Shown here: positions 5,391 to 24,176 of the stretch, in pieces
How the letters are laid out: every line of letters starts with the position of its first letter
Position numbering within the stretch: the stretch's first letter is position 1
Assembly (NCBI RefSeq): GCF_000177215.2
Contig: NZ_CM001368.1
Location: 1,178,001-1,242,000, forward strand
DNA: 64,000 nucleotides
Source: Solidesulfovibrio carbinoliphilus subsp. oakridgensis
GTDB lineage: Bacteria > Desulfobacterota > Desulfovibrionia > Desulfovibrionales > Desulfovibrionaceae
Direction: 5' to 3'
Notes under the pieces: generated by a model
Seen by the model: only the letters and a program-made list of their open reading frames with translations
Databases searched by the model: none
What the model was told of the DNA's origin: nothing
Program-made: the position numbers and the translations under genes

Positions 5391-6962
5391 ATGGACCGGC
5401 AAACCCTGCTCCCGTTCGCCTCGCCCCAGGCGGCCCTGGCCCTGTGGCGCCGGCTCGGCCGCGCGGACGATTCCGAGGACGACCTGCTGGCCCGGGCCGC
5501 GGATCGGCTGGGCCTGGAGCCCGTGACCGTGGACGCGGCCACGCCGGTGGATGTGGAACTCCTCAACCGCCTGCCCGCCCACTTTGCCAAGACACACCTG
5601 CTTCTGCCCCTGGCCGCCCTCCCCGATGGCCGTGTCCGGGTGGCCGTGGCCACGCCGTTTCTGGGCACCGTGGCCGGGGAACTGTCCCACCAACTGGGAA
5701 CGCCGGTGTCGCTGTGCCTGGCCAACGCCGTCAAGATCGACGAGGTCCTGGAAGCCGCCTACGGCGAGGGGGGCATGGCCCGGGCCGTCAAGGATCTGGA
5801 GGACGCGGATTTCGAGGAGCTGGAAAACATTGAGGACCTCAAGGACATGGCGCAAGCCGCCCCGGTCATCAAGCTCGTCAACAACCTGTTCATGGAGGCC
5901 ATCGTCCAGAAGGCCTCGGACATCCATCTTTCGCCCTACGAGGACGGCCTGGAAATGCGCTACCGAGTGGACGGCATCCTGCACGTGGTCAAGCAGGTGC
6001 CGCGCAAGTTCCAGGCCGCCATCATCTCGCGCCTGAAAATCATCGCCAACCTGGACATCGCCGAGCGCCGCATCCCCCAGGACGGTCGCATTCGGCTCAA
6101 GGTCGAGGGTCACGACTACGACATCCGAGTGGCCGTGACCCCCACCGTGTTCGGCGAGGGCGCGGTCATGCGCATCCTGGACAAGGCGTCCATCCAGGTC
6201 GCCTTAGCCGACTCCGGTTTCGCCCCGACCATGCTGGCCCAATGGCTGGAGCTCATCAAGCGCCCCAACGGCGTCATCCTGGTGACCGGCCCCACAGGCT
6301 CGGGCAAGACCACCACCCTGTACTCCTCGCTCAACCACATCAAATCCCCGGAAATAAAGTTCATCACCGTCGAGGACCCGGTGGAGTACCAGTTGCGCGG
6401 CGTGGACCAGATCCAGGTCAACGCCAAGGTGGGCATGACCTTCGCCTCGGCCCTGCGCAGCATCCTGCGCCAGGACCCGGACGTGCTCATGATCGGCGAA
6501 ATCCGTGACTTCGAGACGGCCGAAATTGCGGTACAGTCCGCCCTGACCGGCCATCTCGTCTTCTCCACCCTGCATACGTCCGACGCGGCCACGGCCATTA
6601 CCCGGCTCATCGAGATGGGCATGGAGCCCTATCTCGTGGCCTCCACCCTGGTGGCCTCCCTGGCCCAGCGCCTGGTGCGCAAGCTGTGTCAGGCCTGCCG
6701 GCGCCGGGCCCCGGACGGCACCTGGTCCGCGCCTGGGTGCGAGCTCTGCGGCGGTTCGGGCTACAAGGGACGGCTGGGCATTTTCGAGCTGCTGCGCATG
6801 ACCGATCCCATGCGGCGTCTCGTCCTGGAGAAATCCGACGCCTCGGTACTGGGAGAGCTGGCCCGCCAGGAAGGGCTGCGCAGCCTCTACGAGGACGGCA
6901 TGGCCAAGGCGGCCCAGGGACTGACCACCGCCGAGGAAGTGGCCCGGGTGGCCTCGGCCTGA
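5391..6962 (+). CDS. gspE: Type II secretion ATPase GspE
   Basis: A 523-residue cytoplasmic ATPase that powers the type II secretion pseudopilus. The N-terminal region (about 1-110) is MshEN-like and would dock on GspL. The catalytic part has SDIHLSPYEDGLEMRYRVDG (about 180), Walker A GPTGSGKTTT (about 300), the Asp box, Walker B VLMIGEIRD, and the His box GHLVFSTLHT. A zinc motif with two CxxC pairs (CQAC...CELC, about 433-455) is typical of true GspE. It heads the operon at 5391-18330, with gspF following after 34 nt. Length and motifs are normal and complete. Confidence 0.95.
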   Translation: MDRQTLLPFASPQAALALWRRLGRADDSEDDLLARAADRLGLEPVTVDAATPVDVELLNRLPAHFAKTHLLLPLAALPDGRVRVAVATPFLGTVAGELSHQLGTPVSLCLANAVKIDEVLEAAYGEGGMARAVKDLEDADFEELENIEDLKDMAQAAPVIKLVNNLFMEAIVQKASDIHLSPYEDGLEMRYRVDGILHVVKQVPRKFQAAIISRLKIIANLDIAERRIPQDGRIRLKVEGHDYDIRVAVTPTVFGEGAVMRILDKASIQVALADSGFAPTMLAQWLELIKRPNGVILVTGPTGSGKTTTLYSSLNHIKSPEIKFITVEDPVEYQLRGVDQIQVNAKVGMTFASALRSILRQDPDVLMIGEIRDFETAEIAVQSALTGHLVFSTLHTSDAATAITRLIEMGMEPYLVASTLVASLAQRLVRKLCQACRRRAPDGTWSAPGCELCGGSGYKGRLGIFELLRMTDPMRRLVLEKSDASVLGELARQEGLRSLYEDGMAKAAQGLTTAEEVARVASA

Positions 6963-6996: not shown

Positions 6997-8214
6997 TTGG
7001 CGCTGTTCGGTTACACGGCCCTCAAGGGCGACCTGCGGGTGGCGGGCGAGATCGAGGCTGCCAGCCAAGGCGAAGCCACCCTGGCCCTGCGTCGCAAGGG
7101 GCTGTCCCCGCTGTCCGTGGAGGCGCGCACGGGAGCGGCGGGTGTGGCCGGTCCGGGCCCGGGACTTTTTCCCAGCCGAGGGATCGGTACCAAGGACGTG
7201 ACCAAGTTGACTCGCCAACTGGCCTCGCTGCTGGGATCCGGCCTGACCCTGTCCCGGAGCCTGGCCCTGCTGGCCCGGCAATCCGAGGCCAAACGCGCCC
7301 GGGGGGTCATCGACGCCCTGGGCGAAAAGCTCCGTTCCGGCGCCACGTTTTCCGAAGCCCTGGCCGCCTTTCCCCGGGAGTTCGACGCCCTGTACGTGGC
7401 CATGATCCGGGCCGGCGAGGCCGGGGGCCGCATGGAGGAGGCCGCGGAACGCCTGGCCGGCATCCGGGAGGCCTCCGAGGAGATTGCCGCCAAGTTCAAG
7501 AGCGCGCTCATTTATCCCGCCTTCATGTTCCTGGCCATGTCCGGAGCCGTCATCGTGCTGGTGACCTTCGTGGTGCCCCGTTTCGGCCAGCTCTTCGCCG
7601 ACATGGGCCAGGCCATGCCCCTGCCCACCCGGATGCTGCTTGACGCGGTGGCCGTGTTCCAAGCCTACTGGTGGCTGCTCCCGGCAGTTTTGATCCCTGG
7701 CTGGCTGGGCCTGCGCCATTACGCTGCCTCGTCGGAGGGACGCTACGCCCTGGACGCGGCCGTTCTGAAAATCCCCTTGGCCGGTCGGCTCGTCCACGAA
7801 CTCTCCCTGTCCCGGTCCTGCCGCACCCTGGGCGGCATGCTCCAGTCCGGGGTCCCGCTTTTAACGGCCCTGTCCTCGGCTGCGGCCGTGGCCGGCAACA
7901 CCGTGGTCGCCCGCTGTCTGTCCGGCTCCATCAAAAACGTCCAGGAAGGGAAAAAACTCGGCGATTCTATCCGGACCATCGGCGGATTCACCCCCTATGC
8001 CGAGGAAATGGCGGCTGTTGGCGAGGAGGCGGGTTCCCTTGACCGCATGATGTTGCGGGTGGCCGACACCTACGACCGCGACACGGAAACCCTGCTCAAG
8101 GGCCTGACCTCCCTGATCGAACCCCTCATGATTCTGGTCATGGGCGGCGTGGTGGCCTTCATCGTGTTGGCCATGCTCCTGCCCATTTTCCAGATGAACC
8201 TGATGGCCGGATAG
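6997..8214 (+). CDS. gspF: Type II secretion inner-membrane platform protein GspF
   Basis: A 405-residue polytopic membrane protein at the centre of the assembly platform, contacting GspE and GspL. It has two repeated cytoplasmic GspF domains (about 60-185 and 265-385), each with the LTRQLASLLGSGLTL- or LSRSCRTLGGMLQSGVPLL-type helix, and three membrane helices (about 165-190, 215-235 and 372-395, the last reading LMILVMGGVVAFIVLAML). The start is TTG at 6997, placed seven to ten bases after GGAGGA; no ATG fits. It is of normal length for the family. Confidence 0.94.
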   Translation: MALFGYTALKGDLRVAGEIEAASQGEATLALRRKGLSPLSVEARTGAAGVAGPGPGLFPSRGIGTKDVTKLTRQLASLLGSGLTLSRSLALLARQSEAKRARGVIDALGEKLRSGATFSEALAAFPREFDALYVAMIRAGEAGGRMEEAAERLAGIREASEEIAAKFKSALIYPAFMFLAMSGAVIVLVTFVVPRFGQLFADMGQAMPLPTRMLLDAVAVFQAYWWLLPAVLIPGWLGLRHYAASSEGRYALDAAVLKIPLAGRLVHELSLSRSCRTLGGMLQSGVPLLTALSSAAAVAGNTVVARCLSGSIKNVQEGKKLGDSIRTIGGFTPYAEEMAAVGEEAGSLDRMMLRVADTYDRDTETLLKGLTSLIEPLMILVMGGVVAFIVLAMLLPIFQMNLMAG

Positions 8215-8233: not shown

Positions 8234-8590
8234 ATGCGGAATGTTCTTTCTTGGCGGTCCGTAACCGTGCTGTTGGCCGCCGTGGCCACGGGTCTGGTCT
8301 GGCTGGCCCTGCCGTTGCGGGCGGCCGAGAACCAGGATCTGGACCACCTGGCCGGGGCTATCGCCAGCCTGAATGCAACGGTCAGCAAGGGGCTTGCCGA
8401 GGTCTGCACCCAACTCAGCCAACTCAATCATCCCCAGTGGGAATACACAATCGCCAAGGTCAACCTCCTGGACACCAAAAGCGGCCGGTCCCAGACCGAG
8501 CCTGATTTTTCCGCCCTGGGTCGGGATGGATGGGAACTGGTGTATTACGATCAGACCATCGGCTATTTTTTTAAGCGGCGGGCCAAGTGA
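8234..8590 (+). CDS. Small exported DUF4177-like protein in the secretion operon
   Basis: A 118-residue protein with an N-terminal hydrophobic signal (about 8-30, ending LPLRAAE), a short helix with Leu/Ile heptads (about 35-60) and a C-terminal module WEYTIAKV...LGRDGWELVYY...GYFFKRR. That module has the signature of DUF4177-type domains (W-E-Y ... N-x-x-G-x-x-G-W-E-L-V), whose function is unknown. It sits between gspF and gspH, 19 nt after the former and overlapping the latter by 4 nt (GTGA), so it is surely co-translated with the secretion system. It may be a periplasmic accessory part; this is inference. Confidence 0.75.
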   Translation: MRNVLSWRSVTVLLAAVATGLVWLALPLRAAENQDLDHLAGAIASLNATVSKGLAEVCTQLSQLNHPQWEYTIAKVNLLDTKSGRSQTEPDFSALGRDGWELVYYDQTIGYFFKRRAK

Positions 8591-9069
8591 GACACGACGT
8601 CCGCGTTCCGGGTCGGGCCGGGTTTACGCTGCTGGAACTCCTCGTGGTTCTGGTCATCCTCGGCGTGGTCTCGGCCCTGACCATGCCCCTGCTTGGGCCG
8701 CGGCTGGAGGGAGCCAGGTTGCAGGCCGCGGCGGCCAGCCTCGTGACCCTGGCCGGTTCCGGGCGATACCTGAGCGTGGCCAGCGGCTACAACCACGAAC
8801 TCGTCCTGTCCCTGGAGACGCGGCGGGTCCTGTTGCGCCGGTCCGACACCAAGGCCGTCGTCATGGCCCGACACCTGGACAAGGGGGTCGCCATTGACTG
8901 GATCAGGGTCCGGGGCAACGTCCACAAGGAAGGCGGGACCACCATGGTGTTTCATCCCGACGGCACGGCCACGGATGCCTCCATGACCCTGCGTCACCGG
9001 CAACGCACACTGCTCCTGACTCTGGATCCGGCCAGCGGCAGACTACGCGAAGGTTCGTTAGGCACATGA
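8587..9069 (+). CDS. gspH: Minor pseudopilin GspH
   Basis: A 160-residue pseudopilin. The prepilin cleavage and methylation motif is AG|FTLLELLVVLVILGV (about residues 11-27): Gly before Phe, Glu at +5, then the hydrophobic helix. A beta-rich globular domain follows, ending FHPDGTATDASMTL...LTLDPASGRL, which matches GspH. The start is GTG at 8587, sharing GTGA with the previous stop. The C-terminus runs into the edge of an IS1595 relic, so the last few residues may have been replaced. Cleavage needs a prepilin peptidase (GspO), which is not in this cluster. Confidence 0.88.
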   Translation: MRHDVRVPGRAGFTLLELLVVLVILGVVSALTMPLLGPRLEGARLQAAAASLVTLAGSGRYLSVASGYNHELVLSLETRRVLLRRSDTKAVVMARHLDKGVAIDWIRVRGNVHKEGGTTMVFHPDGTATDASMTLRHRQRTLLLTLDPASGRLREGSLGT

Positions 9070-9531: not shown

Positions 9532-9634
9532 AAATGCTCGTCAACCAGCTGAGTTATAAGACATTATGTTAAAGAGGCTGAGGCCAACCAACCGCCACAA
9601 TGTTTCATTGAAGGTTTCGCTTCTCGAGTGTACC

Positions 9635-10042
9635 ATGCATAAACAGAATCGGTCTGCACAGGGTGGCTTTACCCTGCTTGAAGTTATGGTGGCCACGGCA
9701 ATTATGGCCATAGGGCTTACGGCGGTCCTGACGGTGTTTTCGGCCTCGCAGCGGGCCGTGTCCCAAGCCATTGGCAGCGAGCGGGCCCGACTGGAGGCAG
9801 AACGTCTCATGGCCGAACTGCTGCAGGCCTCACCAAAGGCGCCCTTTGAGAACACGGGGGACTGCCGTCCTCCCCTGTCGGGCCACTGGCGGACACGGGC
9901 GGGGGCCATGCCGGAACATCCGGAACTGACCGTGTTCACCGTGGGCGTGACATTCCCGACCCCGGCCGGCACTCGGACCGTGACCCTGGAAACGGCCCAG
10001 GCCAACATGCAATTGCCGCCCCCAAGCGGCGCTGTGAAGTGA
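9635..10042 (+). CDS. gspI: Minor pseudopilin GspI
   Basis: A 135-residue pseudopilin from the start at 9635. The cleavage motif QG|GFTLLEVMVATAIMAIGLTA lies right after a short basic leader (MHKQNRSAQ), as expected for GspI, the minor pseudopilin that nucleates the tip with GspJ and GspK. I preferred ATG 9635 over an in-frame ATG at 9566 because the extra 23 codons lie in DNA next to the IS relic and would give an unusually long leader. No good ribosome binding site is visible before 9635, so the insertion may have changed how it is translated. Confidence 0.83.
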   Translation: MHKQNRSAQGGFTLLEVMVATAIMAIGLTAVLTVFSASQRAVSQAIGSERARLEAERLMAELLQASPKAPFENTGDCRPPLSGHWRTRAGAMPEHPELTVFTVGVTFPTPAGTRTVTLETAQANMQLPPPSGAVK

Positions 10043-10050
10043 GGGCCTAC

Positions 10051-10470
10051 ATGCTGAAGACTTGGAGGAGCGCACCCTGTATCTGGTTGGTGACCGTCCT
10101 GGCCCTCGCGGCCGCCACGGGGTGCAGCAGCAAGGCGTACAAGGACTACCAGCCCCTCGACACGAGTTCGATCCAGCACCCGCAGGTGGGCGTCACCCTC
10201 AAGGTGGTCCCGGTCGGCGATGACCTGCGGCTTTTCAGCGAATTCAAAGCCGACGAGGTGGTGCTGGTCGTCACCCGGGTCAAGGACGGCCTGCCCGCCG
10301 CCAGGGCCGGCGTGCGGGTCGGCGATCTTTTTCTGAGTCTCGATGGCATCCGTGTGCGGGGCATGCGCGAATGCCTGGCCGTGATGCAGCGCAAGCAGGC
10401 CGGAGAACCGATTCTGCTGGGGATTTTCCGCCAGGGAGCCCCCTCTACCCTGCAGGCCACGCTCCAGTAA
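10051..10470 (+). CDS. PDZ-domain lipoprotein in the secretion operon
   Basis: A 139-residue predicted lipoprotein. The signal peptide ends at a lipobox (LALAAATG|C, about residue 25), giving a lipid-anchored, probably periplasm-facing protein. The C-terminal two thirds is a single PDZ-like domain: VLVVTRVKDGLPAARAGVRV, then GDLFLSLDGIRVRG, then an alpha helix and a final strand. PDZ domains bind protein C-termini or unstructured tails. GspC in this operon also has a PDZ domain, so the system has two. A lipoprotein here could be a pilotin or an extra substrate-binding part (inference). GAGGG before ATG 10051 supports that start; a GTG at 10039 overlapping gspI is the alternative. Confidence 0.75.
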   Translation: MLKTWRSAPCIWLVTVLALAAATGCSSKAYKDYQPLDTSSIQHPQVGVTLKVVPVGDDLRLFSEFKADEVVLVVTRVKDGLPAARAGVRVGDLFLSLDGIRVRGMRECLAVMQRKQAGEPILLGIFRQGAPSTLQATLQ

Positions 10471-10503: not shown

Positions 10504-10944
10504 ATGCGGATGCAGGGAAACAGGCGGCCGCCCCGGGGGTTCACCCTCATTGAGATGCTCGTGGTGGTGGTCATCATCGGGGTCCTGGCCTCCATTGTCG
10601 GACCACGTTTTTTCGGCAAGGCCGACGAGGCCAAGATCGCGGCGGCCAAAAGTCAGTTGGAGGTCTTCGCCCTGGCTTTGGACAGCTACCAGCTCGATAC
10701 CGGGGATTACCCGAGCCAGGAGCAGGGGCTCAAAGCCCTGGTGGAAAAGCCGAGTTCCGGCACCGTGCCCAAGGGCTGGAACGGCCCCTATTTACGCAAG
10801 CGCGAGCTGCCCAAGGACCCCTGGGGCAATGACTACGGCTACGTCAAGCCCGGCAAGCACAATCCCGACTACGATCTCTACAGCCTGGGCAAGAGCGGCA
10901 AGCCGGGCGGAGACGGCGAGAATGCCAACATCACGAACTGGTAG
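10504..10944 (+). CDS. gspG: Major pseudopilin GspG
   Basis: A 146-residue major pseudopilin that forms the shaft of the pseudopilus. The leader is basic, followed by RG|FTLIEMLVVVVIIGVLAS (from about residue 14). The body has the family signature: AKSQLEVFALALDSYQLDTG, YPSQEQGLKALVEKP, WNGPYLRK, LPKDPWGNDYGY, and the C-terminal calcium-binding loop PDYDLYSLGKSGKPGGDGENANITNW. Every hallmark residue is present. AGAGGAGAC precedes the start at 10504. Confidence 0.95.
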   Translation: MRMQGNRRPPRGFTLIEMLVVVVIIGVLASIVGPRFFGKADEAKIAAAKSQLEVFALALDSYQLDTGDYPSQEQGLKALVEKPSSGTVPKGWNGPYLRKRELPKDPWGNDYGYVKPGKHNPDYDLYSLGKSGKPGGDGENANITNW

Positions 10945-11551
10945 GGGGCACCAACGACATGCCCCTGTACCAGAAGAAGGCCAGGGGTACGGCCCGGACC
11001 CGTCCCAGTCCGGATTCACCCTGCTCGAACTGACCATCGCCCTGACCCTGGGCGCCTTGCTGCTGAGCGCGGCCTACGCGAGCTTTCACGCGGCCATGGC
11101 CGGGCGCGACCGGACCCAGCGCGCCCTGGAGCCCCTGATGCGAGCCCGGTACGTCTTCGCCTCCCTGTCCCGGGACCTGCTGCGCCTACACGAGGAGTGC
11201 ACGGACAAAGACTTCGCCTGCGAGGAGCACTCCTGCCTTTTTCCCATTCTTGATCCCCATGGTGAAAAGATTTTCATTCGCTACGCGTTCATCGATGGCG
11301 AACTGCGCCGGGAACGCTTCGCTCCCGGAGAAAGGGCACCCGATGCCGCCGCTCCGGCAGCAACGTCCGTGGTGGCGGGGAACCTGTCCCAGGTGATGTT
11401 TTACACGCACAAGGCCCTGTTGACCAAGGACAAGTGGTTTCCTCGCTTGGTCGATCTGGACCTGGACTTCGGTCGCGGGACCCAACGGCAGGAGCGGTAC
11501 AGCCATGCGGTCTATCTGGAAACCACGCCCCATGACGCAACCAGCAACTGA
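10922..11551 (+). CDS. gspJ: Minor pseudopilin GspJ
   Basis: A 209-residue pseudopilin. The motif SG|FTLLELTIALTLGALLLS lies about 33 residues in, an unusually long leader. The only start codon between the upstream stop-free region and the motif is ATG 10922, which overlaps the last 23 nt of gspG in another frame; GGCGGAGA sits just before it. The globular part (DRTQRALEPLMRARYVFASLSRDLLRL...) fits GspJ, the minor pseudopilin that caps the tip with I and K. The end overlaps gspK by 20 nt. Translational coupling to gspG is likely. Confidence 0.85.
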   Translation: MPTSRTGRGHQRHAPVPEEGQGYGPDPSQSGFTLLELTIALTLGALLLSAAYASFHAAMAGRDRTQRALEPLMRARYVFASLSRDLLRLHEECTDKDFACEEHSCLFPILDPHGEKIFIRYAFIDGELRRERFAPGERAPDAAAPAATSVVAGNLSQVMFYTHKALLTKDKWFPRLVDLDLDFGRGTQRQERYSHAVYLETTPHDATSN

Positions 11552-12752
11552 CCAGGCCCGGGGCTTCGCCCTGCTGTCGACCCTGTGGGTGCTGACCATC
11601 CTGGGCATTGTCGGTGCCTGTTTCGCCTTCACCAGCCAGACCGAGGCCAAAGTGGCGGCCTTTGATCTGCGCCGGAGCCAGGCCTTCCTCACGGCCCGGG
11701 CCGGCCTCCACCTAGCGGCCGCCGTCATCCGCGAACACGCCGGGGATCCCATGCACTCGGCCACCGCTCCCTGGTGGACCGACCCGGCCCTGTACCATCA
11801 GGTCCGATTCGGTCAGGCCTTCTGCTCGTTGACCCGCCAGGGTTCGGCCGTGGACCCGTCCGACACCGCCGGGGATGGTCCCTGGTACGGCCTGGATGAC
11901 GAGGAATCGCGTCTCAACGTCAACGTGGCCACGCCGGAAATGCTCATGCGTTTCCCTGGAGTCCCCAGCGCCCTGGCCGAGGACCTGGTGCTCTTTATCA
12001 GGAAACGCAAGGAAGCCGCGGACAAGGCCCGGACCAAGGCCGAACAATTCAAGCTGGACGCACCGCGACACGCCGATGACTTGGTGACGGGCCCCATCCG
12101 CCAGCTCGCCGAACTGCTGGAGGTCCCCGGCGTCACCCGGGAGCTGTTGTTTGGCGACTCCTCCACCGGCGAAGAGGGCGGGCTGGCCAGGGAACTGACC
12201 TGTTTTTCCACGGGCAAGGTCAACGTCAACACCGCCCGCCCCACGACCCTTATCGCCCTGGGCCTGAGCCTGGGCCAAGTGAACAAGCTGCTGGCCCTGC
12301 GCCGGGAGGGGTTCCCCGGCTTTCACGACGTCGGGGAATTTCTCGCCGCCGTGGCCGCTTCCGACGCCAAGGCCGGGGCAAACACCCTCGGGAACGGGAC
12401 CGGAAAGGCCGGCTCCGCCCTGACGCCCTCCGCTCTGGCCCCCACGGGCTTGGCCCAGTCCGGGTTGTCCGGCTCGGGGCTGGCCAAAGCCGGCCAGACA
12501 GAAGGGGAGTCCGCGCCTTCGGGCCAAGGGGCCCCGGCCAATACGGATCAAGCCACGGCCTCGGGCTCCGGCGCGTCCGCACCGCTGCCGGCCAATCTGC
12601 TGGATGTCAAATCCCGTAATTTCCGGCTGATGGCCACGGGCAGAAACGCCAACGGCACCTACGAGTACCCGGTGCGGGCCCGGCTGAGTCTTGGCGACCA
12701 GACCATGGCCTTCACCATGTTTCAGGTCCCGGCCAGGGCGGACGATTCCTGA
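11532..12752 (+). CDS. gspK: Minor pseudopilin GspK
   Basis: A 406-residue large tip pseudopilin. The N-terminal RG|FALLSTLWVLTILGIVGAC carries the cleavage site; Ser replaces the usual Glu at +5, which is common in GspK because it caps the tip. The SAM-like helical domain has YGLDDEESRLNVNVATPEML and a second motif GKVNVNTARPTTLIALGL. A Gly/Ala/Ser-rich linker of about 75 residues (about 285-360) interrupts the C-terminal part and is unlike the compact forms. I chose ATG 11532 rather than the in-frame 11505, because it gives a short basic leader. Confidence 0.9.
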   Translation: MTQPATDQARGFALLSTLWVLTILGIVGACFAFTSQTEAKVAAFDLRRSQAFLTARAGLHLAAAVIREHAGDPMHSATAPWWTDPALYHQVRFGQAFCSLTRQGSAVDPSDTAGDGPWYGLDDEESRLNVNVATPEMLMRFPGVPSALAEDLVLFIRKRKEAADKARTKAEQFKLDAPRHADDLVTGPIRQLAELLEVPGVTRELLFGDSSTGEEGGLARELTCFSTGKVNVNTARPTTLIALGLSLGQVNKLLALRREGFPGFHDVGEFLAAVAASDAKAGANTLGNGTGKAGSALTPSALAPTGLAQSGLSGSGLAKAGQTEGESAPSGQGAPANTDQATASGSGASAPLPANLLDVKSRNFRLMATGRNANGTYEYPVRARLSLGDQTMAFTMFQVPARADDS

Positions 12753-12783: not shown

Positions 12784-14247
12784 ATGATGGGAAAGCGCCT
12801 CCATCTCCCCTCTTTGCCCCCGGTCCAGCACGGTGGTCGCGGGGACGCGCCTCCGGCTGATCGAAAACCGTGGTCGCGGATTCGGGACTTGGTGCGTCGT
12901 CTGTTGCCCGAGCCCCCCCTGGCCGTGGTCCTGGCTGGGGGGGACGACCGGATCGCTATCTTCGCTCGCGATCCGGAGGGGATCGCATGGCGCCAACCGG
13001 ATCGCCTGCCCCGGACGCAACGGGGAAAGGCGTGTGCCCTGGTCCTGCCCCCCGGCTGGCTGACCCTGCGCGGGATCGCGGTTCCGGGCGGCCGGATCGG
13101 GGAAGCCAGGGCGGCCGCCGTGCTGGAACTGCACTCCAGCCTGGCTGTGGATCCCGCGACCGGCTGGACCTTTGTCCGGGCCGGTCGCCACGGAGACGGC
13201 TTCCAGGCCGTGGCCGCCTTTCTCGACAACGACACGCTGTCGCACTTTGCCGACGCGGCCGTCGCCGCGGGGCTGGCCCCGAGCCGCATCGTTGTCCCGG
13301 AGTTCGCCTGCGGCGCAAGCCCCATGGTCCTTGTCTCCGTCGACCGGACCCATGCCCTGGCAGCCTATCTCGCGGGAGGCCGGCCCGTCTTGTGGCAAGC
13401 CTTCGCCGAGGCCGGCCCCAGCCTGGCCTGCTGCTTGGACCTTATTACGGAACAACTCGCGGCAAAGAGGCTGGCCCTCCCGGAACGCGGCCTTGTCTGG
13501 ACCATGGACGGACAGCTGGCCGGGCCGCTGACGGCGACGGTGGGCCAGGCCTTCCCGGGGATCCCCGTGGAGTGCGTTGCCAACTGGCCGGCGGTGTTGC
13601 CCCGTCTCCTCGACAGCCCAGGCGCCTCCTCGACAGCCTGGATGCCCGGACGCCGGGACGTCGTGTTCGGTGAGTTCCTGACGGCCAGGGACCGCGTCAG
13701 GCTCGATGGGCCGGGTCTCAAACGACTGGGCCTGGCCGTGGCCGCCATGGTGGTCGGACTGATGGCCCTGGCGTTTGCCCTGCTCCGGGACTCTGAAAAG
13801 GATCTGGCCCAGCTGGAAACCGAGGTCCGCTCTCTGACGGTGCAGGCCAACCGCTCCAAGATTCTCGGCGAACGTATCCGTGGGCTTTCGCAAGGCATCG
13901 CCTTCATCCGATCCCATACCGAGGATAAGCCCATGATGCTCGGTGTGGTGGCTACGGTCTTCCGGGCCGTGCCCCGGCTGCTCAAGCTCGATGGCATAAG
14001 CGTCTCGGACCAGGGTGCCGTCCGCCTCAACGGCCAGGCGGAAAACGAATTCTACGTGACGGAGTTTCTGGACTCGCTGTCCAAACTGGAGGCGGTGCGT
14101 TCGCCCAAGCTCGAGTCCCTGGAGGTCGATCCCAAAACCAAGACAGCCCGTTTCGCCATCTCGACCACGGCTCCAGCCTGGCAGAAATATCAGGAGGCAC
14201 TGCGCGCCGCCGCCCAACGCCAACAACGCAAGAAGGGCCAGCCATGA
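12784..14247 (+). CDS. gspL: Type II secretion protein GspL
   Basis: A 487-residue inner-membrane protein that links the GspE ATPase to the periplasmic parts. The long cytoplasmic N-terminal region has the actin-like fold pattern of GspL (LVLPPGWLTLRGIAVPG, then AVLELHSSLAVDPA). One membrane helix lies at about 313-333 (LGLAVAAMVVGLMALAFALL). A periplasmic coiled coil and a PilN-like ferredoxin fold follow (SDQGAVRLNGQAENEFYVTE). The start at 12784 (ATGATG) is the first good codon after the gspK stop. It overlaps the next gene by 4 nt (ATGA). Confidence 0.85.
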   Translation: MMGKRLHLPSLPPVQHGGRGDAPPADRKPWSRIRDLVRRLLPEPPLAVVLAGGDDRIAIFARDPEGIAWRQPDRLPRTQRGKACALVLPPGWLTLRGIAVPGGRIGEARAAAVLELHSSLAVDPATGWTFVRAGRHGDGFQAVAAFLDNDTLSHFADAAVAAGLAPSRIVVPEFACGASPMVLVSVDRTHALAAYLAGGRPVLWQAFAEAGPSLACCLDLITEQLAAKRLALPERGLVWTMDGQLAGPLTATVGQAFPGIPVECVANWPAVLPRLLDSPGASSTAWMPGRRDVVFGEFLTARDRVRLDGPGLKRLGLAVAAMVVGLMALAFALLRDSEKDLAQLETEVRSLTVQANRSKILGERIRGLSQGIAFIRSHTEDKPMMLGVVATVFRAVPRLLKLDGISVSDQGAVRLNGQAENEFYVTEFLDSLSKLEAVRSPKLESLEVDPKTKTARFAISTTAPAWQKYQEALRAAAQRQQRKKGQP

Positions 14248-15776
14248 AGGCGTCCCTGGCCGACTGGCTGGACAACGCCCAGGGCAGATGGCTCGCCCTG
14301 GCCCCCCGTGATCGCAAGTCCCTGACCCTGCTCGCGATCATCCTGGCCCTGGCCGGCCTCTACGTTGCGGTTTGCGACCCCCTGCTGCACGCCTTTCAGG
14401 AAATCGACATCCGACGGGAGGCGCTCCTGGCCAAGAAACGCCAAGCCGGCGAACAGGCCGCCCTGCGCATCCAGCGCCAACGCAAGTATGACCAGCTGAG
14501 CGCCGAATACAGCGCCCTCAAACGGCAGGTGCACCTGCGGGACAATGGCTATCTCGACCTGCCGCGCGTGCTGGAGGTCATAGAGACCCTGGCCCACCTG
14601 TCCGGGGTCTCCATCTCCCAGTTGACCCCCAAGGAAAAGCACGAACAGGGGGACCACCTGGAAACCCCCGTGGATATCGCCTATTCCGGCTCGGTCGAAT
14701 CGGTCAGACGCTTTCTCTATTTCCTGGAGACCAGCGAGGAGGTCTTCAACCTCACCAATCTGAGCATGCTTCCCGGCCCCAACGGCGACACCCTGGAGGC
14801 CAAGATATCCCTCGTCAAGCTGTCCCTGCCCCAGGACGAGAAACACGAAGGGCTGGCAGGCCACGGAGAAACCCTTGTCCTGGGGCTGTATCCCAAAGCG
14901 AGCAACATCCCCTTTTTCGTGGCCGAAGCAAAGGGCTGGCTCAAAAATGAAACCGGCGAGGTGGTGCTCAAGCAACTGGATTACTTCAAGGCCGCGGAGA
15001 TGTACCTCATTTCCGGCGACATGCGGGCTATCAACACCTCGCTCTACAGTCTGCCTTATTTCCGCAACGCCGGCGTCGATCTGCGTGGCGTGTTGGTGCT
15101 CAACTGGGGCGCGCCGCAGTTGGCCCTGGTCGTTTCTCCCCATTCCAAGATCGCCGACGTGCGGGACCTGAAGGGCAAGACCGTGTATGTTCAAGCTGCC
15201 CAATATCACCATATATTGTACAAACTTCTGGAAAAGAACGGAGTTCCTCTCGACTCGGTCCACACGGAGAACCTGACCCAGGGTATGCTCCGCAAGGCGC
15301 TCACCACGGGGATCGTGGAAGTCGCCCTCCTGACCAAGGACGAACCCACAGACCAGTATAAGACGCTGGCCTGCATCGACGTGTCCCCGACGGATGCCGT
15401 CTGGATCGTGGCCGTGGGGGCCGAACTGCTTCAGGGCGAAGGAGCCTCCCTGGTCCAGTTGCTGGTGGACGGTTTCGAAAAGGGCCTGGCCTGGTGGCGG
15501 GAGCACCCCGACGAAGGACTGGCCCTCGCGAGCAAGCGGATGGGCGTAGCGCCCAAGCTCCTGCGGCACCAACTGACCAGTGCGGAATTCCCGTCCTCGC
15601 AGCAGTTGGCGGATTTTTTTTGCGGCAGCAAGGACAAAGAACCTGGTATCGTCCACTGCACCAAGGAAATGGAGGCCTTTTACCGGGCATTCTGGAAGCG
15701 CGACGTCCACATTCCCATGGACAGCATTATGGACTGGCGTTTTATGAAATCCTACATCCCCTGTGAACAGCACTGA
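14244..15776 (+). CDS. GspM-like protein fused to an SsuA/NMT1-type solute-binding domain
   Basis: A 510-residue protein in the gspM position. Residues 1-200 look like GspM/PilO: a short cytoplasmic tail, one membrane helix (LTLLAIILALAGLYVAV, about 29-45), a periplasmic coiled coil (about 46-95) and a ferredoxin-like segment (VLEVIETLAHLSGVSISQLT...VESVRRFLYFLE). From about 208 the same frame becomes a periplasmic-binding-protein domain of the SsuA/NMT1/TauA type: ETLVLGLYPKASNIPFFVAE, then KGWLKN, a run of helices, VSPHSKIADVRDLKGKTVYV, then LLEKNGVPLDSV, and a long C-terminal lobe to about 480. Typical GspM is only about 160-200 residues. The frame is continuous with no sign of an assembly error. 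I know of no type II system with this fusion. The domain may sense a small ligand or bind cargo; this is inference. Confidence 0.8.
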   Translation: MKASLADWLDNAQGRWLALAPRDRKSLTLLAIILALAGLYVAVCDPLLHAFQEIDIRREALLAKKRQAGEQAALRIQRQRKYDQLSAEYSALKRQVHLRDNGYLDLPRVLEVIETLAHLSGVSISQLTPKEKHEQGDHLETPVDIAYSGSVESVRRFLYFLETSEEVFNLTNLSMLPGPNGDTLEAKISLVKLSLPQDEKHEGLAGHGETLVLGLYPKASNIPFFVAEAKGWLKNETGEVVLKQLDYFKAAEMYLISGDMRAINTSLYSLPYFRNAGVDLRGVLVLNWGAPQLALVVSPHSKIADVRDLKGKTVYVQAAQYHHILYKLLEKNGVPLDSVHTENLTQGMLRKALTTGIVEVALLTKDEPTDQYKTLACIDVSPTDAVWIVAVGAELLQGEGASLVQLLVDGFEKGLAWWREHPDEGLALASKRMGVAPKLLRHQLTSAEFPSSQQLADFFCGSKDKEPGIVHCTKEMEAFYRAFWKRDVHIPMDSIMDWRFMKSYIPCEQH

Positions 15777-15779: not shown

Positions 15780-16682
15780 ATGGCCTTGCCCCTAACCATC
15801 ACCGTGTCGGGCAGACGGCTCGAACAGTGCCGCCACTGGCTGTGGTTCATCGCCGCAGCCTGTCTGACGACCGCCCTGCTCTTGTGGCTGGCCGACTTCC
15901 GGGACAAACCGCCGCCGCAACCGGTCCAGGCGGCCAGAATCAAGGTCAAGCCGGCCAAACTGCATTATCCCGAGTACGAATCTTTTTCCCTGGGAACTGA
16001 CTTCGCGTTCCGCTATCATCCCCTCAAGGAAGAGGCTTTCTCCTTCGCGGCTCCGGCCACAGGCGCGCCCCCCCCCGTGCCGCCCGACGTGGCGGGCCTG
16101 CGCCTGGTGGCGACCTTGCCGGGGACCGGCAGGACCTACGCCATCATCGAGCGGGCTGGAGGGGGAGGACAGATGCTCGTGCCCCTGGGGGGGATGGTCG
16201 GCGAGAGCTTTGTATCGGCGATTGGTCCTGATTTCGTCGAACTGACCCGAAACGGCGTATCGGCGAGAGTCCAAATCTGGGTGCCCTGGTCAAGTTCGAG
16301 CAAGTCCCCGAACCTGCCCCCCTCGGCCCACACGCACGCCCCCATCCGACGCACCGACAAACCCCTTGTCACCAGTCACACCGTGCTCGCCCCCAGCAGT
16401 TCCCGGGATCGACGCCATCTGGGCATCACGGTGCGCGGCCTGACCGATGCCGAGCGCACGGCTGCCGGGTTGCCCCAGGGCCAGGGGCTCCTGGTGACCA
16501 GCGTCGAGCGGAGTGATATCGATCTCAAGGAAAACGATGTGCTGCTAACCATTGACGGAGCGCCTATTTTTTCCATCGCCATGGTCGTGGACGCCCTGGG
16601 TGCTTCGTCCAGACGCGCCTTGCGTTTCGACCGGCTCCGCAACGGCAGGCACGCGGAAATCAACATACCCCTGTACGAATAG
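15780..16682 (+). CDS. gspC: Type II secretion protein GspC
   Basis: A 300-residue inner-membrane protein that couples the platform to the secretin. It has a short cytoplasmic tail, one membrane helix (about 18-39, LWFIAAACLTTALLLWLADF), a proline-rich linker, a homology-region beta domain (about 102-162: LRLVATLPGTGRTYAIIE, then MLVPLGGMVGESFVSAIGPDFVELTRNG), then a C-terminal PDZ domain (about 215-300: LGITVRGLTDAERTAAGLPQGQGLLV, ENDVLLTIDGAPI). The homology region should contact the N0 domain of GspD. It starts three bases after the preceding stop. Most systems have gspC first and gspD second at the operon start; here both lie at the end. Confidence 0.87.
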   Translation: MALPLTITVSGRRLEQCRHWLWFIAAACLTTALLLWLADFRDKPPPQPVQAARIKVKPAKLHYPEYESFSLGTDFAFRYHPLKEEAFSFAAPATGAPPPVPPDVAGLRLVATLPGTGRTYAIIERAGGGGQMLVPLGGMVGESFVSAIGPDFVELTRNGVSARVQIWVPWSSSSKSPNLPPSAHTHAPIRRTDKPLVTSHTVLAPSSSRDRRHLGITVRGLTDAERTAAGLPQGQGLLVTSVERSDIDLKENDVLLTIDGAPIFSIAMVVDALGASSRRALRFDRLRNGRHAEINIPLYE

Positions 16683-16701: not shown

Positions 16702-18330
16702 ATGACGCGACGCATGGTCCTTCCCGCCACCCTGGCCTGTTTGCCCCTTGTCCTCATGCTTATCTCGCCCATCCTGGTCTGCGCAGCCAAGGGGAACTCC
16801 GACCAGGGCGAACGGATCGAACTCAATTTCCGGGACACCGACGTGCTGGCCGTGTTGCAGTTCTATGCCGAGCTGCTCGGCAAGACGTTCATTCCGGCCG
16901 AAGACCTCACGGGCAAGGTCACGGTCATCGCCTCGAGCCCGGTCACCCGTGAGGAGGCCAAGCGGCTGCTCTTTTCCATCCTGGACGTCAAGGGCTTTTC
17001 GGTGGTGGAAATGGACAATGCCTACAAGGTCATCAAGAAAAAGGACGCCATCGCCAGCGCCGGCATCAAGGGCGGGGGCGGCCACGGGAGCGACCAGGTC
17101 TTCACCGAGGTGTTCTATTTCAAGCATATCCCGGCCAAGAATGTAGTGGAGGACCTGCGCAAAGTCCTGTCCCCGGAGGCGTCCATCTTCGCCGGCACCG
17201 ATGGCAACTACGTGGTGGTCGGCGACAAGGAAACCAACATCATCAAGTTGCGTGGGATCATCGCCAAGATCGACAGTCCGAGTTTCGCCCAGGTCACCAT
17301 ATCGTACCATCTTCAGTATCTCATGGCCGCGGCCACGGCCAAGGTCCTCGGGGACATTTTCAAAAAGGATGGGAAGGACGGTAGCGCCTCCCTGCAGATC
17401 CTGCCGCTTAAGGGCAGTAACACGGTGGTCGTGACGGCGCTGCCCGCCGCCCAGTCCCAGGTGGCGAACATCCTCGCCAATATGGACAAGCGCACGCCCC
17501 AGGTGTCCATTTCGGCCATGCTGGTGGAGGTTATTCTGGATGAGTCGAGCAAGATGGGGCTGGACTGGAAATTGCGGGCCTGGAGCAGCAACAAGGCTTA
17601 CAACGAATTCGCCCAGGATACCCTGGCGAAGACCCTGGAGACGGGCTCCCAATCCGCCTCCGCCAATCTGGCCAAGTATTCCGACGCCGGGACCAAGGCC
17701 GCCATGTTTTTCAATATTTTCCCAGGCGGCTACCTGAGTATGCTTGTCCATATGATTTCCTCCGACACCAACGCCAAAATCCTGTCCTCGCCGCATCTCC
17801 TCGTGGCCGACAACCAGGAAGCGAGCATCAGCCTGGGGCGCGAGATTCCGATTCTCAAGGAATATCGGACCGACACCAACAACGATCCCATCAAAACCTA
17901 CTCGCAACGAACCTTTGGCCTGGAACTCAAGATGACCCCGACCATTGCGGACAACGGAGATGTCACCTTGAAGGTGTCACAAAAACTCTCCAACCTGGAT
18001 GAGCAGGACACGACCAACGACACCTACAAAGCCTCCGAACGAACGGCCGACACCACGGTGGTGGTCCATGACAAGCAGACCCTGGTGATCGGCGGCCTGA
18101 CGATGCAGACCGACGAGAAGGAAGACAGCGGAACGCCGACGGCTCGAAAAATTCCGGTTCTTGGCTATCTCTTCGGCACGAAGTCGACATCCAAACAGAA
18201 GCGGGAACTGCTGCTGTTCATTACCCCGACGGTGGTCAGGGATCCCATTCAGGCCGACGCCATGTCGGTGGAGTACAAGGAGGAAAAACCTATGCTCATA
18301 GACCAATCCGGGCTGGAGTTCGATTTGTAG
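16702..18330 (+). CDS. gspD: Type II secretion secretin GspD
   Basis: A 542-residue outer-membrane secretin. The signal peptide (about 1-30) is followed by an N0 domain (IELNFRDTDVLAVLQFYAELLG) and N1-N2 repeats (EVFYFKHIPAKNVVEDLRKVL; LQYLMAAATAKVLGDIF). The secretin core has QVSISAMLVEVILDESSKMG, then MISSDTNAKILSSPHLLVADNQEA, then RKIPVLGYLFGTK, then KRELLLFITPTVV. It is shorter than many GspD (about 650) because it lacks one N-domain repeat and a long C-terminal S domain, so pilotin binding may differ. ATG 16702 is preceded by GAGGTG. An upstream in-frame ATG (16552) lies inside gspC and has no signal peptide. Confidence 0.93.
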   Translation: MTRRMVLPATLACLPLVLMLISPILVCAAKGNSDQGERIELNFRDTDVLAVLQFYAELLGKTFIPAEDLTGKVTVIASSPVTREEAKRLLFSILDVKGFSVVEMDNAYKVIKKKDAIASAGIKGGGGHGSDQVFTEVFYFKHIPAKNVVEDLRKVLSPEASIFAGTDGNYVVVGDKETNIIKLRGIIAKIDSPSFAQVTISYHLQYLMAAATAKVLGDIFKKDGKDGSASLQILPLKGSNTVVVTALPAAQSQVANILANMDKRTPQVSISAMLVEVILDESSKMGLDWKLRAWSSNKAYNEFAQDTLAKTLETGSQSASANLAKYSDAGTKAAMFFNIFPGGYLSMLVHMISSDTNAKILSSPHLLVADNQEASISLGREIPILKEYRTDTNNDPIKTYSQRTFGLELKMTPTIADNGDVTLKVSQKLSNLDEQDTTNDTYKASERTADTTVVVHDKQTLVIGGLTMQTDEKEDSGTPTARKIPVLGYLFGTKSTSKQKRELLLFITPTVVRDPIQADAMSVEYKEEKPMLIDQSGLEFDL

Positions 18331-20389: not shown

Positions 20390-20860
20390 TCATCCGGTCG
20401 CCGTCTCGCCATGCGCTTTGATGATCTCCCGATACCGGGCCTCGGCCCCGCGGATGAAGTGGCGCATGAAGTGGAAGGTGAAGTAGGCGGCCCCGGCCGG
20501 GTCATCCGCCCACACCCAGGGCACGCCGTAGCGGACGGAGAAGGCGCACATGCTCTGCAAGATGGCATGGGGTTTGGCCTGGCTGCGGTACTCGTGCTGG
20601 CGCACCTGCCCCAGGCTGCCCTCGATGACCACGGCGAAGGCGTCCAGCCCCCTGGCCCGGCGTAGCTCTCGCTCGAACCGGTCCCGCTCCCTGGTCAAAG
20701 AGGCCATCAGGTCGGGCAGGCTCTTACGCTCCACGGCGCACAGGTGGCCGAGGCCCGCCGGGGCGTAGTCGCCCACCTCCAGCGTCCCGGGCTCCACCAC
20801 GGCCTCATAGCGGGAGAAGTCGAGGGCGGCCTGTTCTCGCGTATCAACCACGATTTTCAT
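20390..20860 (-). CDS. ERCC4-type DNA nuclease
   Basis: A 156-residue nuclease of the XPF/ERCC4 fold. Motifs in order: VVDTREQ (residues about 4-10, catalytic Asp), GTLEVGDYA (Asp in the GDY motif), VERKSLPDLMASLTRERDRFEREL (the ERK catalytic core near 45). It has the domain only, with no helix-hairpin-helix or helicase. Small phage and satellite versions probably cut branched or forked DNA during replication. It starts at ATG 20860, inside the end of the upstream small gene, with no strong ribosome binding site, so it is probably coupled to it. An in-frame ATG at 20926 lies in that overlapping gene. Confidence 0.85.
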   Translation of the reverse strand: MKIVVDTREQAALDFSRYEAVVEPGTLEVGDYAPAGLGHLCAVERKSLPDLMASLTRERDRFERELRRARGLDAFAVVIEGSLGQVRQHEYRSQAKPHAILQSMCAFSVRYGVPWVWADDPAGAAYFTFHFMRHFIRGAEARYREIIKAHGETATG

Positions 20861-21020
20861 ACCGCCCCCGTCGTCGCGGCGTGTACCCGGACCGCTTCGC
20901 GTCCCTGGTCTGTTGCATGCGCTCAAGCTCCCGGATGGACCTGGCTTCCAATTCCTCTTCCGTCATCGACGGCATGAGGATGGGGCTGGCTATCTGCCTG
21001 TAGGGGCTATGAGTTTTCAT
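20844..21020 (-). CDS. Small basic protein, phage-type
   Basis: A 58-residue protein (MKTHSPYRQIASPILMPSMT, then a charged helix EEELEARSIRELERMQQ and a basic tail RRRGRYENRG). GGAGGTACTAAA before ATG 21020 is an excellent ribosome binding site, and it follows the upstream gene by one base. Its end overlaps the ERCC4 gene by 17 nt. Unknown family. Confidence 0.6.
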   Translation of the reverse strand: MKTHSPYRQIASPILMPSMTEEELEARSIRELERMQQTRDAKRSGYTPRRRGRYENRG

Positions 21021-21021
21021 T

Positions 21022-21240
21022 TTAGTACCTCCGACACAATGCCTTGATCGTGGCCATGCCGGAGCGACATGCGCTTTGACCCCGCTTCAACTCTTCGGGG
21101 GTTAAGGGCCGACCGCTCAAACTGGCGTGCCAAACGGTCGCCATGGCCTCGGCCAAGCCGAAGTAGGCGGCTTGGCCCATCTCCAGATTGTCCATGCTGG
21201 ACAAAAAAAGCTTGCGGACAGTCTGGCTATCGTTATCCAT
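21022..21240 (-). CDS. Small hypothetical protein of the element
   Basis: A 72-residue mainly helical protein (MDNDSQTVRKLFLSSMDNLE... LTPEELKRGQSAC). GGAGGTG is placed seven bases before ATG 21240. Its start overlaps the 3' end of the primase gene by 8 nt. I recognise no family. Confidence 0.6.
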   Translation of the reverse strand: MDNDSQTVRKLFLSSMDNLEMGQAAYFGLAEAMATVWHASLSGRPLTPEELKRGQSACRSGMATIKALCRRY

Positions 21241-22513
21241 GCTGCACCTCCTGCATGGGCAATTCGCCCTTGTGTTGTTCGAGAAAAGGAAAAGCGTCCG
21301 CGAAAAGACTTCCCGCGTAGCTCACAAGGTCGGGATGGTGATTGGCCCGGAAGAGAAGGTGGGGCCGCCCCTCGGCCAGGACCACACGCAGGCCGTGGCT
21401 TCGGGCCAGGTCGACCAAGTCGAACGCCGCCCACCAGCCCTCAAAGTCGGGATGATCGATTTCGGGCGAGCTCGGCAGCCAGGAAAGGCCGGTTGTGTCG
21501 GCCTCGGGAAGCCCGGCCATAATCCAGGCCCTGACCATGCCCGGTTCGGCCAGGAGGTCGCCCACGTCCTTCCCTGCCGGGACCGGCCAGCGTTTGGCGT
21601 TGGCATAGTGCTCACGCCACCACGGCCAGCCACCGGCCCCGGCCTTGTCGAAATCCAAAGCCACCAGGACCACGGGAGCGGCCATAAACAGCGCGTGTGC
21701 CGCCGTATCGGGCTTTCCCTTTGCCGTGCCCAGGGCGACGCAAAAAACCGCGTCACGGGCTTCCTGAGCGGCCAGGATGGCATCAAGCTCGGACTCTACG
21801 ACAACACAGGGCTTGCCCTTGCCCGGTGCCAGGACCATGGGCAGCTTTCCGCCGCTCGATACGGCTGCATACTTCGGAAGTTGGTCCTCGGGCGTCCACG
21901 CGGAGCGACGGATTTTGATGGCCGCCACCTGGCCGTCGCACAGGGTCGGGATGACCAGACCAGACGGGAGCCAGACACGTCTGCCCTTCCCGGTTCTGGG
22001 ATTCATCTCGGGCGGCAGGCCCCAGGCGGCACGGTTCTCGTAGAGGTCCGAAGGGTTCCAGCCTATCCGTAGCGTGGCGCACGTCTTGGCGGTCAGGCCT
22101 CGGCCCCGGGCGTAATCCATTCCCGAACCACCAGCGGCCAACGCAGCGGCGCAGCGGTCAACAAACTGGCCGGCGCGAGTAGTCCAGACATCCCCCGGCA
22201 GGACTGCCGGCTTGGGCTCCCAGGTGTCGGGCTTCCGGGTACGCACGGCTCCGGTTGCTTTGGGCGTGGCTCCCAGGCGTTTACAGGCGTCGGGGTAGCT
22301 CAGGCCCTCCCGCTCCATAAGGAATGCGATGCCGTCTCCTTGCCGCCCACAGCCGCGACACAGGAACCGGCCGCCGGTCGCGCCGCTCGGATGATCGGGC
22401 CAGACGCGGAAGCGATCCTCGCCGCCGCACCAGGGGCATGGACCGGCATTCTCGCCGCCCGAGGTTCCAGAGACGTATTTCAACCCGGCAGGAAGAAGGC
22501 CCATGATGGTCAT
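21233..22513 (-). CDS. DNA primase with CHC2 zinc finger and Toprim domain
   Basis: A 426-residue primase. The zinc finger is near the start: CPWCGGEDRFRVWPD ... FLCRGCGRQGDGI (C-x2-C...C-x2-C, about 24-60). The Toprim catalytic core has VVVESELDAILAAQEA (about 240) and VLVALDFDKAGAGG (about 282), the Glu and Asp-x-Asp metal sites. The last hundred residues are unassigned. It begins with ATGA overlapping the stop of the upstream ATPase. With that protein it should start replication of the excised element. It is smaller than chromosomal DnaG and lacks its C-terminal helicase-binding region. Confidence 0.88.
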   Translation of the reverse strand: MTIMGLLPAGLKYVSGTSGGENAGPCPWCGGEDRFRVWPDHPSGATGGRFLCRGCGRQGDGIAFLMEREGLSYPDACKRLGATPKATGAVRTRKPDTWEPKPAVLPGDVWTTRAGQFVDRCAAALAAGGSGMDYARGRGLTAKTCATLRIGWNPSDLYENRAAWGLPPEMNPRTGKGRRVWLPSGLVIPTLCDGQVAAIKIRRSAWTPEDQLPKYAAVSSGGKLPMVLAPGKGKPCVVVESELDAILAAQEARDAVFCVALGTAKGKPDTAAHALFMAAPVVLVALDFDKAGAGGWPWWREHYANAKRWPVPAGKDVGDLLAEPGMVRAWIMAGLPEADTTGLSWLPSSPEIDHPDFEGWWAAFDLVDLARSHGLRVVLAEGRPHLLFRANHHPDLVSYAGSLFADAFPFLEQHKGELPMQEVQHG

Positions 22514-23784
22514 ATCAAGACCCCCTGGTTTTCTGTCTCGGCACCCAGACAAGCCAGACAACCCTTAAGGGTTGTTGTCTTGTCTGTCTGGGTAGTGCCC
22601 AGACAATTGTCTGGGGATGTCTGGTCTTGTCTGGGGTGTCTGGGCAGGGAAGATGGCCAGTAGAAATCATTCTCAACCAGGATATGCCCGGAGTCGCGTA
22701 AGGCAGTCAGCGCCCGATGGAAAGCTCGCTGACGTGCTCCTTGTTCCGGAGACGGTGAAATGCTCCTTCTGTATGCTTCCTCGCGCCACGTTTCCACGTC
22801 TACAGGCTTGGCCGATTGCTTCAGCACATCCCATGTTGTGCACAGAGCCATCAATGCCTCGTAGGCGACCTTGTTTGCTCCCTTGAGCGGCGTTTCCTTC
22901 TTGCCGGGTGCCTTGATCTCCACCCGCCGCATGACGATGCTTGTCACGTCCTGGCCGGTGTCGGCGTCTGTCCAACCGGTCCCAACCGCTTCAGGCTCGA
23001 AAGCCATGTCGGCCGGGGGCTCGTGGTCCTTGGCTTTCGTGCAGGACAGCACGCGGATGTCGTCCTTGGGCTCAAGGCGGTATTCCCAATCCAGGGCGGC
23101 CCGGAAAGCAGAAGCCCCACGTGCACGATCCGCAGCAGCAAGGCCGGTATGGTGAACAACGATCACGGCGCAGTCGAATTGCACGCGGATGTCGTCCAGG
23201 GCCGCGACGAAGCGGCTCATGTCTTGGGTGGAATTTTCGTCCCCCCCGCCAAAATTACGCGCCAGGGTGTCAACGATGACCAGCTGGGGCGCACCGATGC
23301 CTTTGGCGAGGACTTGGACGGCGGCTACGGCCTCGGCCACGGAGTCCGAGTCAAGAAAGGCGACGGGGGAGTTTGAGACGTAAAAGGGGACAGTGGGCGC
23401 TTCCAGGCCGTGGTGGATGAGCCACACGCGCAGCCGCTTGCCGATTCCGGCAAAGCCCTCGCCGCAGACGTAGACCACCGGCCCGGCAGCAAGGATGGGG
23501 TGGCCGTGCCAGTCCCGCCCACTCGCCACGCAGAGGCCCATATCCAGTGCGACGAAGGACTTCATGCCAGCGGAAGGGCCATAGATGCTGGCGAGAGTCC
23601 CCACCTCCAAGTAGTCGCGGACCAGCCACCGGGGCCGCATCGGAGTGGCGCAAAGGTCTACAGCAGGCAGCAAGGAGAACTTCCGCACGCTGCCGGGCTG
23701 ACTCCCTCCGGTCCCATGCTCTGCCGCTTCTTGGGCCACCCGGGCCGCGACCTGGGCACGAAGGTCTTCGACAGTAGGAATCAT
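22510..23784 (-). CDS. RepA-like AAA ATPase/replicative helicase
   Basis: A 424-residue RecA-fold ATPase of the RepA/AAA_25 type. Walker A is GPSAGMKSF (about 66-74), where Met replaces a usual Gly or Thr before Lys. The Walker B-like stretch is LVIVDTLARNFGGGDENS, and the sensor-like segment is CAVIVVHHTGLAAADRARGASAFRAALDW. This is the hexameric helicase found next to primases in P4-like, plasmid and prophage modules. It starts at ATG 23784 with an ATGA overlap to a small gene upstream. The C-terminal 40 residues, encoded by the GTCTG-rich repeat cluster, are low in complexity and unlike the rest. Confidence 0.85.
   Translation of the reverse strand: MIPTVEDLRAQVAARVAQEAAEHGTGGSQPGSVRKFSLLPAVDLCATPMRPRWLVRDYLEVGTLASIYGPSAGMKSFVALDMGLCVASGRDWHGHPILAAGPVVYVCGEGFAGIGKRLRVWLIHHGLEAPTVPFYVSNSPVAFLDSDSVAEAVAAVQVLAKGIGAPQLVIVDTLARNFGGGDENSTQDMSRFVAALDDIRVQFDCAVIVVHHTGLAAADRARGASAFRAALDWEYRLEPKDDIRVLSCTKAKDHEPPADMAFEPEAVGTGWTDADTGQDVTSIVMRRVEIKAPGKKETPLKGANKVAYEALMALCTTWDVLKQSAKPVDVETWREEAYRRSISPSPEQGARQRAFHRALTALRDSGHILVENDFYWPSSLPRHPRQDQTSPDNCLGTTQTDKTTTLKGCLACLGAETENQGVLI
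22541..22645. repeat. Iteron-like cluster of GTCTG/CAGAC with two palindromes
   Basis: Within about 105 bases the pentamer GTCTG or its complement CAGAC occurs nine times, many as TGTCTGG. It includes two perfect palindromes: 22559-22574 (CAACCCTTAAGGGTTG) and 22598-22615 (CCCAGACAATTGTCTGGG). It lies in the 3' end of the RepA-like ATPase gene, just before the primase. Such dense short repeats are typical of plasmid and phage origins bound by a Rep protein; the role as origin is inferred. Confidence 0.6.
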
Positions 23785-23945
23785 GCCTGGGACTCCATCC
23801 GGCCGCGCAGGGCCTCGGCCCGAACCTCGCACCAGTCTACAGCGCGATGCAGCCACGCCCACCGGGGCCAGCCCAACGATGCGACAAGACCAATCAGAGC
23901 GTCATGGGCCCACAGCAAACAGGCGAGCAGCTTGAAGGCGGTCAC
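23781..23945 (-). CDS. Tiny coupled protein of the element
   Basis: A 54-residue hydrophobic/Trp-rich peptide (MTAFKLLACLLWAHDALIGL, then GWPRWAWLHRAVDWCEVRAE). GTG start at 23945; a GTGA overlap with the gene before and an ATGA overlap with the gene after make a translation chain. AGGGGTGG precedes the GTG. Its function is unknown; the coupling is the main reason to call it real. Confidence 0.5.
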   Translation of the reverse strand: MTAFKLLACLLWAHDALIGLVASLGWPRWAWLHRAVDWCEVRAEALRGRMESQA

Positions 23946-24175: not shown

Positions 24176-24176
24176 T

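Follow-up and report, generated by a model that had tools for sequence, protein, structure and literature searches.

A SsuA/TauA-like binding-protein domain fused to GspM in a distinct lineage of type II secretion systems

GspM (EpsM/OutM/XcpZ/PulM; PF04612, PF04350) of the type II secretion system (T2SS) is usually a protein of about 160-200 residues. Its ferredoxin-like domain is exposed to the periplasm beside GspL (PMC10128026), both proteins are placed in the platform, where contact with cargo has been discussed (PMC11981180, PMC10128026), and the Klebsiella equivalents of GspE, GspL and GspM constitute a hexameric hub (PMC6882859). For T2SS cargo no secretion signal is known, and GspC, GspD and the pseudopilus have been put forward as docking sites (PMC11981180). 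Direct effector contact with GspL/GspM is indicated by the title of Michel-Souzy 2018 as it appears in the reference list of PMC10128026. A fusion of a binding-protein domain to a part of a machine has a precedent in the ABC ATPases NrtC/CmpC, where a C-terminal NrtA/CmpA-like domain is thought to be regulatory (PMC11349869; PDB 9uak, 8wm7). It belongs to the same superfamily as the domain described here; the NrtC/CmpC domain is cytoplasmic and sits on the ATPase of an importer, whereas the present one is predicted to be periplasmic and sits on a platform protein of a secretion system.

The fusion gene lies in a 64,000-nucleotide stretch of Solidesulfovibrio carbinoliphilus subsp. oakridgensis (contig NZ_CM001368.1, positions 1,178,001-1,242,000), here called the window, and its operon is read from the plus strand throughout. 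The genes for the ATPase GspE (5391-6962; T2SSE 2.6e-135) and for GspF (6997-8214; by profile), both used in the trees below, are followed by a small conserved gene (8234-8590), whose exported-looking product matched no Pfam family above cut-off and has homologues in six other operons of the same type. The pseudopilin genes comprise a gspH-like gene (8587-9069; N_methyl), a gspI-like gene (9566-10042; by profile), both with homologues in other operons, the major pseudopilin gene gspG (10504-10944; T2SSG 2e-40) and a gspJ-like gene (10985-11551), the start of which is uncertain, with an N_methyl motif at about 11009. Between gspI and gspG a small PDZ protein is encoded (10039-10470; PDZ_6 1e-9) that has homologues in all seven other fused operons and is a second PDZ protein of these operons besides GspC. 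Next come gspK (11505-12752; T2SSK 6.6e-6) and gspL (12784-14247), encoding a cytoplasmic actin-like part and a PilN-like periplasmic part, and behind the fusion gene gspC (15780-16682), with HR and PDZ regions, and the secretin gene gspD (16702-18330; by profile). Since the PilN match of GspL lies just below cut-off and the T2SSC/PDZ_2 and GspC_delta matches of GspC are weak and also below it, these two assignments rest on operon position and on homologues, present in all eight operons. The core set C, D, E, F, G-K, L and M is thus encoded at the locus, with two Peptidase_A24 (prepilin peptidase) genes elsewhere in the genome, and by profile and position the locus is a complete T2SS gene set. 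Elsewhere in the window, a protein with a PEP-CTERM sorting signal is encoded close to the operon (633-1250, +), and genes for an ERCC4 nuclease, a primase-type zinc-ribbon protein, an AAA_25 ATPase and an AlpA regulator (20390-24503, -) resemble a block of replication genes such as integrated phages or satellite elements have.

The gspM slot of this operon is occupied by one open frame of 510 codons (14244-15776, +), as the preliminary description had claimed. Its ATG overlaps the end of gspL and gspC starts directly after it, at 15780. Searched alone against Pfam, residues 1-208 matched T2SSM (residues 10-78, 2.9e-7) and PilO (residues 64-188, 5.9e-6), both above the gathering score, while residues 207-510 matched NMT1 (9e-12) across the last 304 residues. 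Against NCBIfam, the match to the GspM equivalog was below its cut-off, and TIGR01728 (SsuA_fam) was matched at 1.5e-15, yet under the curated cut-off. In an AlphaFold2 model (34-row alignment, mean pLDDT 83) the N-terminal half consists of a transmembrane/long helix and a ferredoxin-like domain at about 106-194, ordered as helix 106-120, strands 123-132 and 139-150, helix 151-162 and strands 167-177 and 183-194. A disordered, low-confidence linker (residues 194-206, pLDDT<50; 14823-14861) without transmembrane segment or signal peptide by hydropathy is followed by a binding-protein fold from about residue 207, with pLDDT about 90. Foldseek ranked E. coli TauA first among PDB entries (6ssy; TM-score on target 0.73 at E 1.2e-15), ahead of SsuA, of HMP-binding and THI5 proteins and of the regulatory domain of CmpC. 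An independent model of the homologue from another genus, G037, gave the same architecture and the same fold matches, again with TauA 6ssy on top.

By profile and model, the N-terminal part (residues 1-194; 14244-14825) is therefore a GspM with one transmembrane helix (residues 26-44) and a PilO-type ferredoxin-like domain, and the C-terminal part (residues 207-510; 14862-15773) is a complete two-lobed binding-protein fold. The profile searches of the separate halves and the structure prediction of the whole, both proposed in the preliminary description, bear out its view of a membrane/PilO-like segment followed by an SsuA/NMT1-type periplasmic-binding fold; the domain start is only shifted, from about residue 208 to about 207. 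The protein shares with ordinary GspM the slot between gspL and gspC/D, the single N-terminal transmembrane helix and the PilO domain, and differs by about 305 extra residues, which make up the binding domain and put its 510 residues outside the GspM norm; the extension is added and no GspM part is replaced. It shares with SsuA/TauA/NMT1 substrate-binding proteins (PF09084, TIGR01728) the fold and the overall sequence, and differs in its GspM tether, an apparently remodelled pocket and a C-terminal extension with two invariant cysteines. By hydropathy each of the eight fusion proteins has a single transmembrane-like segment, and the junctions are all hydrophilic, without a signal peptide, so the binding domain is expected to be located in the periplasm, borne by GspM.

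The window genome has a single copy of the fusion. A survey of genomes with the same gene order, as the preliminary description had suggested, revealed full-length fused homologues in seven further species, one being G037 and six being species of a third genus, g8. These proteins are 27-29% identical to the window protein (29% for G037) and are encoded between gspL and gspC, gspC following directly in all eight operons. In total the fusion is thus found in eight species of three genera with the same junction and a frame open throughout. The seven other operons share the set E, F, G, I, PDZ, K, L, M-fusion, C and D, and the gene order is common to all eight; the six g8 operons additionally contain H and the small ORF, and the G037 contig ends at gspI. 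No further fused locus, and no unfused counterpart of this operon with the two halves as separate genes, was found at the reporting thresholds used among overlapping sets of 288 family, 348 order, 395 phylum and 277 class genomes, the remaining matches listed being to the binding domain only. Neither of the two outcomes that the preliminary description had named as refuting it, separate genes in related genomes (looked for in operons of this type) or the lack of a binding-protein fold, was thus observed. When genome contigs were scanned broadly with the window sequence alone, one irrelevant match of 18 residues came up, and a search of plasmids found nothing beyond remote, partial similarity to the binding domain.

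In contrast to the fusion, a T2SS gspG is present in 61 of the 288 family genomes. Twenty other T2SS loci were fetched, and in the 11 that were clearly readable the gene after gspL encodes 164-193 residues. When four of these unfused genes were checked with profiles, three passed a Pfam GspM cut-off and one had a sub-threshold T2SSM match. The six g8 carriers and G037 each have at least one additional T2SS gspG outside the fused operon, and the fusion was absent from the five such loci fetched (L089-L093). In three loci an AAA-type ATPase ORF, ExeA-like by eye ('VFSFFPSESHKKAVHRI...TGEIGTGKTTL'), adjoins gspM and gspG (L092:9815-11743 in G269, L094:7522-9228 in G261 and L096:8293-9726 in G288).

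In a tree with 26 standalone relatives the fused binding domains were recovered as one clade (support 96/95), and the fused operons were likewise one clade in the GspF and GspE trees (support 99), although some long branches meet in these trees and the exact sister of the fused operons is therefore uncertain. The nearest GspF outgroup, L085, has an unfused GspM of 188 residues, of subtype b. The trees speak for the fusion having arisen once, and it stays with its operon. Within g8, the one genus for which dN/dS was computed, the ratio was 0.05-0.11 for the binding half and 0.05-0.12 for the GspM half, absolute values being rough because synonymous sites are near saturation, and the similar ratios indicate that purifying selection acts on the added half just as on the GspM half. 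All eight fusions have Cys460 and Cys507, and the corresponding columns of the standalone proteins are without Cys. The closest standalone relatives are SsuA-family proteins at or near the TIGR01728 cut-off, and those at L103, L104, L105, L106 and L109 adjoin ORFs that by eye read as ABC permease and ATPase, in apparent cassettes of binding protein, permease and ATPase. The best explanation of sequences and models is that GspM, in a distinct T2SS lineage, captured a mature SsuA/TauA/NMT1-family binding protein and now has it as an extension of its C-terminus. Both halves belong to known families; no description of a GspM-binding-protein fusion, nor of such a domain on any secretion machine, was found in a literature search excluding most subscription journals, and within that literature the combination is a newly described architecture. 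To our knowledge no component of a T2SS had been described with a binding-protein domain before.

A candidate cargo is encoded just upstream of the fused operon in the window (3789-5255, +). It is a Cys-rich protein of 488 residues with a signal peptide, 20 Cys and a sub-threshold Thaumatin match (3e-4). In the six g8 genomes a homologue adjoins the fused operon, whose counterpart in G037 is on a different contig from that of the thaumatin-like gene. The thaumatin-like protein was found in 14 of the 288 family genomes, namely in all eight with the fusion and in six others, and all 14 carriers have a T2SS (hypergeometric 1e-10 given 61 T2SS genomes in 288, a value that ignores relatedness, six of the eight fusion genomes being of one genus). 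It is hence a candidate T2SS exoprotein, for which the fusion as such is not required since six of its T2SS genomes lack it.

The binding domain is probably a periplasmic docking or sensing module. Among possible roles docking or regulation is ranked as most likely, small-ligand gating next and an inert spacer after that. The fuller statement, that it is a cargo-docking or regulatory module on a predicted-functional GspM of a distinct T2SS lineage, is evenly balanced in our assessment; the thaumatin-like candidate occurs also without the fusion, and an acidic hinge residue kept in seven of the eight fusions fits the sensing of a ligand equally well. This residue belongs to the pocket known from TauA, where taurine is contacted by Gln30, Gly61, Gly79, the essential Glu106, Thr132 and Asp205, with Trp176 nearby (PMC6906117). 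A small molecule, sulfonate- or amine-like, might still be bound in the cleft, whose closure would switch the platform on or off, as in the ligand-gated secretion that the preliminary description offered as an example. The Glu106 site is Asp in 25 of 25 standalone proteins and in all seven fusions other than that of the window, and the Gln30 site is Trp in 25/25 and 6/7, respectively; pocket-flanking columns are 61% identical between G037 and g8 against 50% elsewhere, and NrtC/CmpC are a precedent for a binding domain as regulator (PMC11349869). The excess at the pocket is however not significant, being reached by 14% of random column sets, and the sites of Asp205 and Trp176, which are Asp and Trp in 25/25 standalone proteins, are changed to Gln and Phe in all seven other fusions. 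Site by site, these seven thus keep part of the pocket with the specificity determinants changed, and the window copy keeps no diagnostic letter, having Lys218, Leu293 and Trp387 at the sites of Gln30, Glu106 and Asp205 and a gap (deletion or misalignment) at that of Trp176; its row is about 20-28% identical to the others, so that some register error in its pocket alignment is possible. In the same crude test the flanking columns of the window and g8 are 19% identical against 27% elsewhere, which points the same way but is not significant either, 21% of random column sets reaching it. The window copy appears from this alignment to have given up the ligand pocket, which speaks against ligand gating as the general function, and we regard that reading as rather unlikely, if still a serious competitor.

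The same erosion would suit a domain that recognises neither cargo nor ligand and serves as bulky platform scaffold, for instance as a substitute for GspN. In none of the eight operons was a GspN gene seen between the fused gspM and gspC, and some other loci (L084, L089, L093) have an ORF after gspM that is GspN-sized, as judged by size. A mere spacer is nevertheless improbable when the acid and the Trp are retained in most fusions and the full two-lobe fold is kept over deep divergence, with dN/dS about 0.07 within g8. Membership in the SsuA/NMT1 family and the presence of several permeases elsewhere in the genome would allow the tethered domain to serve a distant ABC importer, coupling uptake and secretion by accident. 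The window contains none of the genome's ABC permeases (PF00528), as the preliminary description had noted of the neighbourhood, the nearest one being at genome position 1,286,378. Together with the lack of a signal peptide at the junction this makes a transport role unlikely; the importer reading, considering also the apparent loss of the standalone pocket set and the position in a conserved operon, with gsp genes on both sides of the fusion in the other operons, is very improbable. A sequencing, assembly or annotation error, or a recent accidental local fusion of two genes, is ruled out by eight species in three genera with a shared junction, an open frame and 27-29% identity; nothing was found in its favour, and the probability left to it is negligible.

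GspM probably inserts with its C-terminus in the periplasm, and about six binding domains, going by the GspM copy number in Klebsiella, would then encircle the machine at its base, close to GspL, GspC and the pseudopilus. If the docking or regulatory reading is right, the domain would capture a folded exoprotein, the adjacent thaumatin-like Cys-rich protein being the first candidate, or would sense the loaded state, and the hinge movement that characterises the binding-protein fold may relay the signal through GspM and GspL to GspE, the motor. In the seven proteins that retain the acidic pocket residue a small ligand may set the state of the domain. A receptor-gated T2SS, in which ligand or cargo closes the GspM-borne domain and thereby licenses pseudopilus assembly, is a tentative proposal to which we give slightly less credence than to docking or regulation.

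An open question about T2SSs is how the folded cargo is recognised and how pumping begins. In the defined lineage described here a classical recognition domain has become a permanent part of the platform subunit that neighbours the motor linker, and ordinary T2SSs coexist with the fused one in several of the same genomes. Substrate recognition or signal gating can be put to a direct test in this lineage and, if the proposal is true, secretion would be receptor-gated through periplasmic receptor domains built into the T2SS platform.
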